From: Pseudomonas putida
GTDB taxonomy: Bacteria; Pseudomonadota; Gammaproteobacteria; Pseudomonadales; Pseudomonadaceae
Reading direction: 5' to 3'
Length of the DNA stretch: 64,000 nt
NCBI GenBank assembly: GCA_029953615.1
Contig: CP124529.1
Coordinates: forward strand, 682,001 to 746,000
Positions within the stretch are counted from its first letter, which is position 1. Every line of letters starts with the position of its first letter. Positions 24,603 through 53,825 of this stretch are shown here, piece after piece. A program made the position numbers and the translations under genes. The notes under the pieces were generated by a model. The model searched no databases. It saw nothing but the letters and a program-made list of their open reading frames with translations, and had not been told where the DNA came from.

Positions 24603-24688
24603 TGTGGGAGCGGGCGTGCCCGCGAAGCAGGCGGCGCGGTGGATGGCACCGGCTGCGCCGGTGTTCGCGGGCGCGCCCGCTCCCACAC
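24603..24688. repeat. REP pair, class A
   Basis: Two inverted copies carry GGGAGCGGGCGTGCCCGCG and CGCGGGCGCGCCCGCTCCC, just after the acsA stop. Confidence 0.85.
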
Positions 24689-27321: not shown

Positions 27322-27424
27322 TGGGGGCCCTGCGGGCCCCATTCGCGGGCTTGCCCGCTCCCACAGGTACAGCGCCTGCCTTGAATCTGGCGCGGTACCT
27401 GTGGGAGCGGGCAAGCCCGCGAAG
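27322..27424. repeat. REP pair, class A
   Basis: Two inverted copies (CATTCGCGGGCTTGCCCGCTCCCACAGG and its mate) sit between convergent DUF2790 and phhR genes. Confidence 0.85.
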
Positions 27425-30473: not shown

Positions 30474-30592
30474 TGGGGCCGCTTCGCGCCCCTTCGCGGG
30501 CCGGCCCGCTCCCACAGTGACCGCGTCGCCCCTGGCTTTCGTGACTTCCTGTGGGAGCGGGCAAGCCCGCGAAGGGGCGCGAAGCGGCCCCA
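30474..30592. repeat. REP pair, class A with extended outer palindrome
   Basis: Two inverted copies with outer GGGGCCGCTTCGCGCCCC / GGGGCGCGAAGCGGCCCC arms lie after phhB. A TTTTTT run follows the second arm, so the structure could also terminate transcription. Confidence 0.8.
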
Positions 30593-36384: not shown

Positions 36385-36480
36385 GTACCGGCCCTTTCGC
36401 GGGCACGCCCGCTCCCACAGAGGTATCACAGGTCCTGAGTGCTGCGCTGTGGGAGCGGGCGTGCCCGCGAAAGGGGCAGC
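36385..36480. repeat. REP pair, class A
   Basis: Inverted copies (CCTTTCGCGGGCACGCCCGCTCCCACAG and mate) lie between the convergent LysR and permease genes. Confidence 0.85.
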
Positions 36481-39832: not shown

Positions 39833-39937
39833 GCCGGCCTCTTCGCGGGCTTGCCCGCTCCCACAGGGATATCACAGGTCCTGAGGGCTGCGCAGTACCT
39901 GTGGGAGCGGGCGAGCCCGCGAAGAGGCCGGTACTGG
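39833..39937. repeat. REP pair, class A
   Basis: Inverted copies lie between scpB and rluB, which run in the same direction, so this pair is intercistronic. Confidence 0.85.
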
Positions 39938-46842: not shown

Positions 46843-46940
46843 CTGGCCTCTTCGCGGGCCTGCCCGCTCCCACAGGTACTACACAGGCCTTGAAGCAGTG
46901 TTGTACCTGTGGGAGCGGGCAAGCCCGCGAAGAGGCCGGA
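46843..46940. repeat. REP pair, class A
   Basis: Inverted copies lie between the convergent histidine kinase and nitroreductase genes. Confidence 0.85.
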
Positions 46941-50572: not shown

Positions 50573-50614
50573 TTGGGGCCGCTTTGCGGCCCATCGCGAC
50601 ACAAGGCCGCTCCT
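50573..50614. repeat. Class B REP, left half of an IS-split pair
   Basis: TTGGGGCCGC...GCGGCCCATCGCGACACAAGG continues to GCTCCT and then stops at the element boundary, where other copies continue ACAAGG. Confidence 0.9.
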
Positions 50615-50649
50615 TGTATGTTGTGTCTGGCCTAGCGGGAGAGGTTATT

Positions 50650-50810
50650 CTCGTCGGGCTGAAGAAGCACTTCCGGGGAGGCCGATCGCTCCTGAAGGCA
50701 GGTATTGCCCCTGACCTTGTATGTAGAGAGGCCCCCCGCCTCATTGCCCACTGCGAAGAGTATCGAGAAGCCGACAAGTCGGACTTCGCATTACAAGGTT
50801 GCAGCAGCAT
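50650..50810 (+). ncRNA. Predicted bridge RNA of the IS110-family element
   Basis: IS110-family elements encode a bridge RNA with a target-binding and a donor-binding loop. Here the target loop would be a stem (50675-50683 with 50730-50738, one mismatch) holding CGCTCCT (50687-50693, identical to the left target), a small hairpin GGCA/TGCC (50697-50709) and CCTTGTA (50715-50721, complement of the right target TACAAGG). The donor loop would hold AGAGTATC (50757-50764, identical to the element's right end), hairpin CCGAC/GTCGG (50771-50782) and TACAAG (50792-50797, complement of the core plus left end CTTGTA). Exact RNA ends are not known. Confidence 0.7.
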
Positions 50811-50870
50811 GAAGTTCGAGGTCGGGGAACCGGAGGCCATTGTTACCTAACTCGCTTGGGAGAGGAAGGA

Positions 50871-51866
50871 ATGAGTGTCTGGGTTGGCGTCGATATCGGC
50901 TCACGTACTTCGGTCGTTGGGGTGCGTAAAGATGGGCGTCCGGCCGGACAGTGGGATATCGCTCAAACCCCTGCAGGCCGTAAGGCTGCGGTGAAAAAGC
51001 TGCTGGCACTCAAACCCAAGTCGATCGTGATGGAGGCGACCGGAATCTATTACCTGGACTTGGCCCTTGAGCTACATGCGGCTGACCTCCCTGTATCCGT
51101 GATCAACCCCAAGAGCTTCCACAATTTCGCCAAACTGATGCTGGTGAACAGCAAGACCGATGCAATAGATGCTCAACTGCTGTCCGAGTACGGCGAGCGT
51201 ATGACACCGCGCTTGTGGACACCTCCAAGCCTTGTGCAGCTTGAACTGAGGGCTCTGGGGCGACACATCAATCGTTTGGTGGGGCATCGTACAAGGGCGA
51301 AGAACGAACTGCATGCATTGCAGGCGACCGCTACAACCGTGTCGATGCTGATCGAGGATCAGGAGGAAGCGATTGCTTCACTGGATAATCGAATTGAGCG
51401 CTTTCGTAAGGCGGGCCGCGAGCTGGTCGCCCAGTGTCCGACGCTTACTCGGCAGTACAAGCAGCTGCTCGCAGGGCCTGGGATGGGAGAAGTCTCTGCA
51501 CTTGCGGCATTGGCTGAACTGACCATCCTTCCTCAAATGCTCAAGTCCTCGCAGGTAGCTCGCCACGCGGGTCTCGATGTTCGACAGACCCAATCGGGAA
51601 CGAGCATTGATAAGCCCGGCAGACTCGGCAAAAGTGGGAATGCTTATCTACGGGCAGCCATGTACATGCCTGCCTTGACCGCAGTGCGCTGCGACCCTTA
51701 TGCGAAGGCTTTTTACGAGTCGTTGGTCAACAGGGGCAAGAAGAAAATGCAGGCTATCGCTGCTGTCATGCGCAAGTACCTGACAGGCATCTGGGCATGT
51801 ATGCGCGGGGATGAGCCATTTGATACGGCCAAGCTTTTCAGCTCTGAACACCTCAGAAAAGCTTGA
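50871..51866 (+). CDS. IS110-family transposase (DEDD/serine recombinase)
   Basis: A 331-aa bridge-RNA-type recombinase. The N-terminal RuvC-like domain has Asp8 (WVGVDIGSRT), Glu55 (VMEATGIY) and Asp97/Asp100 (NSKTDAIDAQLL), the DEDD set. A coiled-coil linker lies at about 155-195. The C-terminal Transposase_20 domain starts LLAGPGMGEVSALAALAEL and has the Ser-Gly pair QSG (Ser242) where the catalytic serine is expected, then GNAYLRAAMYMPAL. All key residues are intact, so the element may be active. ATG 50871 follows AGGAAGGA. Base composition is lower in GC than the flanking genes, as expected for a mobile gene. Confidence 0.93.
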   Translation: MSVWVGVDIGSRTSVVGVRKDGRPAGQWDIAQTPAGRKAAVKKLLALKPKSIVMEATGIYYLDLALELHAADLPVSVINPKSFHNFAKLMLVNSKTDAIDAQLLSEYGERMTPRLWTPPSLVQLELRALGRHINRLVGHRTRAKNELHALQATATTVSMLIEDQEEAIASLDNRIERFRKAGRELVAQCPTLTRQYKQLLAGPGMGEVSALAALAELTILPQMLKSSQVARHAGLDVRQTQSGTSIDKPGRLGKSGNAYLRAAMYMPALTAVRCDPYAKAFYESLVNRGKKKMQAIAAVMRKYLTGIWACMRGDEPFDTAKLFSSEHLRKA

Positions 51867-51883
51867 CCGCCAACAGAGTATCT

Positions 51884-51965
51884 ACAAGGTCCGCATAAAT
51901 TCCAGATTCACGCGGTCGTTGTAGGAGCGGCCTTGTGTCGCGATGGGCTGCAAGGCAGCCCCCAG
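51884..51965. repeat. Class B REP tail and inverted mate, right side of the IS
   Basis: ACAAGGTCCGC is the continuation of the split left REP. The mate GTAGGAGCGGCCTTGTGTCGCG to GGCAGCCCC lies at about 51920-51965. Confidence 0.85.
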
Positions 51966-53724: not shown

Positions 53725-53825
53725 TACCGGCCCTTTCGCGGGCGCGCCCGCTCCCACAGGTGTTGCACCGTTTTCAACACCTGTGCAGTACCTGTGGGAG
53801 CGGGCATGCCCGCGAAGAGGCCGGC
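53725..53825. repeat. REP pair, class A
   Basis: Inverted copies (CCTTTCGCGGGCGCGCCCGCTCCCACAGG and mate) lie between the AraC and EamA genes, which run in the same direction. Confidence 0.85.

Follow-up and report, generated by a model that had tools for sequence, protein, structure and literature searches.

The element at positions 50613..51883 of the window (the whole analysed stretch of 64,000 nucleotides) is almost certainly an IS110-group insertion sequence of the IS621 type whose bridge RNA would choose both its target and its own ends. It lies from CT core to CT core on the forward strand, as do the parts of the element and its target site given below, and is present in 11 copies with differing flanks in the host genome, a single contig of 5.76 Mb whose REPs and relatives suggest the Pseudomonas putida group. 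The preliminary description had proposed an IS621-type bridge RNA on the basis of four short matches, all of which are present where it had placed them: CGCTCCT (50687..50693) equals 50608-50614, CCTTGTA (50715..50721) is the reverse complement of 51883-51889, AGAGTATC (50757..50764) equals 51875-51882, and TACAAG (50792..50797) is the reverse complement of 50613-50618. Covariation of target guides with targets and a conserved two-loop RNA structure support this reading, with a different placement for one of the four guides.

The element encodes an IS110 recombinase of 331 aa (50871..51866), preceded by a 5' non-coding end of 258 nt, and its stop codon is separated from the right core by 15 nt. 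Both recombinase domains exceed their cut-offs (PF01548, 77.8 bits; PF02371, 64.1 bits) and the DEDD and serine motif residues D8, E55, D97, D100 and S242 correspond, by motif, to the catalytic residues D11, E60, D102, D105 and S241 reported for IS621 (PMC11208158); the residue alignment (HMMER) was made with ISCro4 only. The two domains together with the conserved serine, and the short core of fixed sequence at both junctions (CT...CT in 11/11 copies), are those of the IS110 family. In all 11 RNA-model matches the RNA lies upstream of tnp, which assigns the element to the IS110 group and excludes IS1111. A distant second IS110-type recombinase with 28% identity is encoded in the same genome (L025; G000:C1 3850262-3851083).

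The 11 copies have this stretch in common, small indels excepted. Ten copies are full and encode an identical protein, and one has a broken tnp, which is divided into two overlapping frames (L023/L024; G000:C1 417126-418378); ahead of the tnp start, the window copy lacks one G that the others have. All 11 junctions read GGCCGCTC-CT on the left and CT-ACA on the right, and the insertion point is the same in 11/11 copies, at one position within a GTAG-headed REP. Comparison of these junctions places the core dinucleotides of the window copy at 50613..50614 and 51882..51883. The left part of the broken REP occupies 50595..50614, with the left target CGCTC and the core CT at 50608-50614, and the right target, core plus ACAAGG, lies at 51882..51889. 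The left flank CGACACAAGGCCGCTC was found in 10/11 copies, the eleventh having one differing base, whereas the right flanks vary beyond the common CTACA, reading CTACAAGG (4/11), CTACAGG (4/11), CTACATT (2/11) or CTACACA (1/11). Against the reverse complement of Pput4, the REP of P. putida W619 listed in Table 1 of PMC2817692, the left target agrees at 16/16 bases in ten copies and 15/16 in one. A covariance model of the two-loop RNA, built de novo from our own alignment, found 11 RNAs in this genome, all of them within the 11 copies, and thus no orphan RNA at that threshold.

Two REP families are present in the genome, as seen in a 464-kb sample consisting of the window and 20 further stretches. 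Within it, CGCTCCTACA occurred 18 times and CGCTCCCACA, of the CGCTCC-CACA kind, 106 times, making the latter about six times commoner. Both fit the left guide, and their sole difference in ten bases is the second core base. Insertions were found at the CGCTC-CT-ACA kind in 11/11 cases and at CGCTCC-CACA REPs in 0/11, an absence predicted by the CT core together with a GTAG right guide; by number alone (18 of 124), 11/11 would have a probability of about 6e-10, presuming equal access and independent copies. Genome-wide, CGCTCCTACA was counted at 253 sites (reverse-read control, 34), the count of CGCTCCCACA being limited to the sample, and AAGGCCGCTCCTACA with up to two mismatches at 419 sites (control, 18), so that most sites are free. 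GTGG-type REPs (GCCCGCTCCCACA), the second REP family, form seven inverted pairs in the window (24603-24687, 27353-27412, 30504-30562, 36407-36460, 39853-39912, 46862-46920 and 53746-53805), alongside two single sites.

Relatives with matches, the own genome included each time, were found in 9/398 genomes of the genus (at 1e-60), 7/369 of the class (at 1e-50) and, by DNA, 8/298 of the family; the genus and class searches scored few candidates per genome, and their copy numbers are therefore lower bounds. With 874 proteins passing 1e-40 among 8000 candidates scored, many more relatives exist than were read with flanks. Across 398 genomes of the phylum and under strict filters, the RNA model matched the own genome alone. 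When three distant matches were followed into their own families or genus, no further lineage appeared, the results being additional copies or pieces of G644, G706, G929 and G971. A DNA search of plasmids yielded one record, Vibrio alginolyticus plasmid pVb1796 (L026), and a plasmid protein search at 1e-30 gave 29 records, all below 60% identity, of which pVb1796 alone was used. Its protein is 43% identical and its RNA region shares 75% DNA identity over 13% of the element; the left target is not REP-like, and the flanks give the impression of coding sequence. In genome G213, four copies (L029, L036, L042 and L047) carry a partial second tnp directly after the first (residues 197-331, 76% identical to the recombinase of the window), and its presence in all four indicates that this duplicated end moves together with the element.

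Left-end RNAs from 26 relatives were aligned, some groups sharing a genome (two each in G134, G865 and G796), and guides and flanks were read from copies with usable ends, giving 59 left and 54 right targets. No usable left target was available for L008 (left flank missing) or for L063 and L069 (left end lost), and no right end lay within the loci L066-L070, L073, L074 and L012. The fragments L009, L010, L011 and L061 were left out, L001 repeats L028, L034/L040 repeat L008, and L089 and L090, both pieces, stand outside the counts. Right ends of L029, L036, L042, L047 and L038 were assigned by a second rule, those of the first four being out of the first rule's range because of the partial tnp repeat; of two left-end-like stretches in L038, the nearer one was taken.

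Comparing sequences across these relatives shows, by covariation, that guides match targets, and more strongly on the left than on the right. Left target guides, CGCTCCT in the window copy, agreed with the targets of their own elements at a mean of 4.81 out of 6 non-core positions, with 2.62 expected (11 distinct guides, 59 copies), and reassigning the guides gave an equally good result in 0/20,000 permutations, which are not independent events as the copies share descent. When RNA columns were scanned against target positions with no preset positions (24 rows for the left side, 20 for the right), columns 25, 24 and 23 paired with target positions -2, -3 and -4 took ranks one to three on the left, and these columns fall within CGCTCCT (50687-50693). 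Weak left-target fits were seen for L066 and L070 (3/6 each), for the Vibrio element (4/6) and for one of three G034 copies, which is mismatched at -4; for 3/11 left guides, the targets of some other guide score higher.

Natural retargeting is visible among closely related elements. In the guide class GATCxCTCCT, a guide A goes with a target A in 5/5 copies and a guide G with a target G in 31/32, the five guide-A copies coming from two lineages and thus representing few events. Between P. fluorescens PfAR1 (L007) and G312 (L032), the recombinases are 98.5% identical and the 271-nt left ends have two differences. One of these falls on position -4 of the guide, an A in one element and a G in the other, and the two targets differ in the same way at -4; they differ elsewhere also, so that the one-base case falls short of a clean swap. 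Among more distant relatives, which have other guides, the guide CCCGAC faces CCCGAC in 4/4 counted copies, and two further G644 copies outside the counts (L086, L087) combine the guide TCCCGAC with targets TCCCGAC or GCCCGAC. For the guide CCCACC the identical target was found in 1/2 copies, for GGCGAC in 1/3, and the guide TCGGTC faces CCGGTC in 4/4. AAGCCCGACCTAC occurs 189 times in genome G644 (reverse control, 0) and 12 times in G706, and was absent from the nine other genomes searched, the own genome included; its abundance in G644 suggests that the guide of that element, too, points to a high-copy repeat.

These observations bear on the possibility that the recombinase itself recognises the palindromic structure of the REP, the RNA matches being by-products of a regulatory leader RNA. 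Such a view would fit the location of all 11 own copies in REPs and the antisense RNA described for ISPpu9, which is complementary to that element's own leader (PMC8450116), but we regard it as very improbable: guide and target base change together between recombinases that are nearly identical, 0/11 copies lie in CGCTCC-CACA REPs, the commoner kind in the 464-kb sample, and the left targets of some relatives, for example the Vibrio plasmid and G442, showed no stem in the stem search.

On the right side, the target guide is TATGTAG (50720..50726), with a near-constant part, GTAG (50723-50726), in 24/26 relatives; departing ends are TTAG in G442, where the target is CTAAC, and GGAG in L069. Over 9 distinct right guides (54 copies), own targets were matched at a mean of 3.78 of 5 positions, with 2.81 expected, and 32/20,000 permutations, again not independent, were equally good. 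In the column scan, column 59 with target position 3 shared the top rank with two unrelated columns, while on its diagonal column 58 ranked fourth and column 57 ninth, with other cells between; columns 57-59 correspond to window positions 50721-50723, inside TATGTAG. Past CTAC the fit is poor in the own copies, whose targets ACAAG, ACACA, ACAGG and ACATT face a guide reading ACATA, and also in G644 (targets ACAGA, ACAGC and ACATC with guide ACGCG) and G929 (target ACTCG with guide ACAAA). In genome G537, the left ends of L052 and L058 differ by three bases, one of them within the right target guide (GTTCCGTAG and GTCCCGTAG, respectively), and L058 matches its own flank CTACGGG fully.

The preliminary description had instead read the right target guide as CCTTGTA, and the exact 9-nt complementarity of that stretch to the right flank of the window copy, shared as CTACAAGG by the four own copies noted above, makes this an understandable choice. 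We nevertheless consider the assignment wrong with very little doubt, as the other seven own copies carry CTACAGG, CTACATT or CTACACA, four of its bases (50715-50718) belong to the 3' arm of the inner hairpin, and 0/14 of the listed top cells of the right scan fall in columns 50-54. The accompanying caution that this match might be a direct repeat was justified in that CCTTGTATGT does occur at both 50612-50621 and 50715-50724; the second copy, however, varies in relatives (CCTTGTCTGTAG, CCTCGCGCGTAG) with the left end unchanged as CTTGTATG. A by-eye assignment of the right target guide can thus be plausible yet wrong, which is relevant to anyone reading guides off such RNAs.

TATGTAG and the other guides are set in a conserved two-loop RNA (50671..50835), defined by alignment, RNAalifold, pair counts and the covariance model. 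RNAalifold on the 26-relative alignment returned 34 pairs, 22 of them with compensatory changes on both sides. Paired cells made up 97.1% across the alignment, compared to 34-50% with partners slid by 1-3 columns, and 0/500 alignment shuffles matched any of five pairing measures; these controls are biased in favour of the structure, which was itself derived from this alignment of related rows. The layout is a stem, the left guide, a hairpin, the right guide and the closing strand of the stem, followed by a second such unit, giving the two internal loops of an IS621-type bridge RNA, with a weakly supported closing stem in the donor loop.

The target-binding loop (50676..50737) is closed by 50676-50683 with 50730-50737 (helix 2; 97.8% of cells paired, both-side changes in 2/7 pairs), and these seven consensus pairs confirm the stem first noticed around the target guides. 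Its inner hairpin (50695..50718; helix 3) pairs AAGGCAGG (50695-50702) with CCTGACCTT (50710-50718), with 98.5% of cells paired and both-side changes in 7/8 pairs; the outermost pair is A-U in 13/26 relatives and G-C in 13/26. In the donor-binding loop (50751..50804), the closing stem, 50751-50756 with 50799-50804, was placed by folding and is paired in 69.1% of cells across relatives, and the inner hairpin (50767..50787; helix 5) is paired in 98.3% with both-side changes in 6/7 pairs. Both small hairpins between the guides had been recognised early on, with extents that were too short. A further hairpin (50629..50660) precedes both loops in a single-sequence fold (z -1.96). Single-sequence folding, which had been suggested as a check, gave a divided outcome: the 168-nt core is stabler than shuffles (z -2.24), but the whole 258-nt left end is not, with z -0.43 and 69/200 shuffles equally good. 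An Rfam 15 search of the region returned no family matching at E up to 1.

The run of C in the 3' strand of the target-loop stem (50732-50737, and its counterpart in L013-L023) is five long in some own copies and six in others, so that two versions of the RNA exist side by side. An open frame of 88 aa does cover the region (50584-50850), but that it is a short leader ORF with incidental RNA structure is scarcely credible and was rejected, given the single-base indels among own copies, such as the five or six C, and the compensating pairs across relatives.

The left donor guide, which in the window copy is AGAGTATC and equals the right end at 51875..51882 (left donor plus first core base), fits its own right end in all 20 aligned relatives where that end could be read. 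Eight of 8 positions matched in 15/20 and 7/8 in five, where four have G for A, a possible G-T wobble, and one has a mismatch (L058). In G644, G706 and G442, where the right end has changed, the left donor guide has changed with it. The right donor guide TACAAG is complementary to core plus left end, as first read, but hardly varies in relatives, and its assignment thus rests on position and complementarity. The left end, CTTGTATG (50613..50620; core plus right donor), is conserved in relatives whose left end is readable and reads CTTGTATC in G442. Joining of right and left ends would create a promoter-like TTGACC-17-TATGTT, for which the -35-like half lies at 51863..51868 and the -10-like half, recognised by its consensus pattern, at 50617..50622. 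The corresponding pattern TTGANN plus TAT(G/C)(T/A)T, as a pattern match without shuffle control, is present in 52/52 copies from 19 lineages, with a spacer of 17 nt in 51 copies and 18 in one. This predicted junction promoter may account for the conservation of the ends while targets drift.

By homology to IS621, the joined ends of the excised element would form a promoter driving the left-end RNA, which would fold into target and donor loops and be bound by the DEDD/Ser recombinase; expression, binding and catalysis are predicted from this homology. The guides CGCTCCT and (TAT)GTAG would choose CGCTC-CT-ACA, here mostly a GTAG-headed REP, and the donor guides AGAGTATC and TACAAG would bind the joined ends of the element itself. 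The junction sequences place recombination at the CT core.

The near-constant right guide led us to consider the heads of REPs more broadly. CTAC, which is the complement of GTAG, consists of the core and two right-target bases; according to the catalogue in PMC2817692, RAYT-type REPs of Stenotrophomonas open with GT(A/G)G and other REPs listed have GTAG or GTGG heads. A listed GTAG-headed REP was matched at 12/16 bases or more by 37/59 copies, compared to 4.0% of the 1426 CTAC sites across the loci retrieved, REPs being among these control sites; 13/26 groups have such a copy. Hairpin-prone left targets were weakly apparent in a folding test (16/59 copies and 6/26 groups at or below 0.05) and moderately in a stem search at 0.05 (22/59 copies, 12/26 groups by median), in which the own REPs score 0.255-0.41; the REP assignment therefore leans more on the catalogue than on these tests. 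Weighing against a link with REP heads, neither a stem (0.1, median) nor a catalogue match (below 12) was found for G181, G312, G442, G799, G796a, G971 and the Vibrio plasmid, and G646, G659, G706, G865a, G865b and G796b have a stem with a catalogue match below 12. The five G312 copies share the left flank GATCGCAGCCTNCNGCAGCTC, indicating that they also lie in a repeat. We tentatively suggest, with somewhat more doubt than conviction, that this IS110 clade specialises on RAYT/REP sequences, the CT core and the near-constant GUAG of the right guide locking onto CTAC, complement of the head with which many RAYT-associated REPs begin, and the left guide being re-tuned per host to the variable stem of the REP. 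If so, the head base would decide which host REP families are open to the element.

The one-base guide change between near-identical elements offers an independent natural case of guide-target coupling, and the two REP kinds, CTACA and CCACA, a one-base natural exclusion inside a single genome. A constant core and short right guide combined with a changing long left guide further suggest a route by which an element could follow a fast-evolving host repeat.

Published accounts of REP-specific IS110 elements in Pseudomonas go back to 2006 (PMC1525189), and the bridge RNA mechanism with family-wide covariation was published in 2024 (PMC11208160); in the open-access literature searched, we found no publication tying RAYT or GTAG REP heads to bridge RNA. 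The descriptions of ISPpu9 and ISPpu10 place all their copies in P. putida KT2440 between REP bases nine and ten, with 2-bp direct repeats (PMC1525189), and both resemble the present element in being REP-specific members of the IS110 family. ISPpu10 is one of six elements named as having had their bridge RNA inspected (Durrant et al. 2024, PMC11208160), and ISPpu9 differs in the AG repeat and A/B boxes described for it (PMC8450116). The present element may prove to be an iso-element of an IS that already has a name. ISPa11, of the IS1111 group, likewise has a REP target and a seeker RNA, but in its published account that RNA lies downstream of tnp (PMC11187229), unlike the upstream RNA found here and in the IS110 group.

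Among solved recombinases, compared by protein sequence (phmmer), ISCro4 scored best (9t56, E 7.1e-40), and IS621 is distantly similar (8wt6, E 8.7e-33). With IS621, whose RNA was compared by its description, the element shares the CT core, the target and donor loops, a junction promoter (predicted here, and reported across the circle junction of IS621 in PMC11208160) and a REP target. As the preliminary description had held, the order of guides, left target, right target, left donor and right donor, and the location of the RNA in the left end agree with the IS621 accounts (PMC11208160, PMC11208158). The four-base right target guide of IS621 is described as pairing with target C8 to C11, spanning the core C8-T9 and A10 (PMC11208158), and should thus also read CTAC, presumably with the letters GUAG. 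Apart from its distant recombinase, the present element differs in that its left target guide reads the arm of a Pseudomonas REP. As the mechanism is known from E. coli IS621, we regard it as a clear new example of that mechanism, and no new system.
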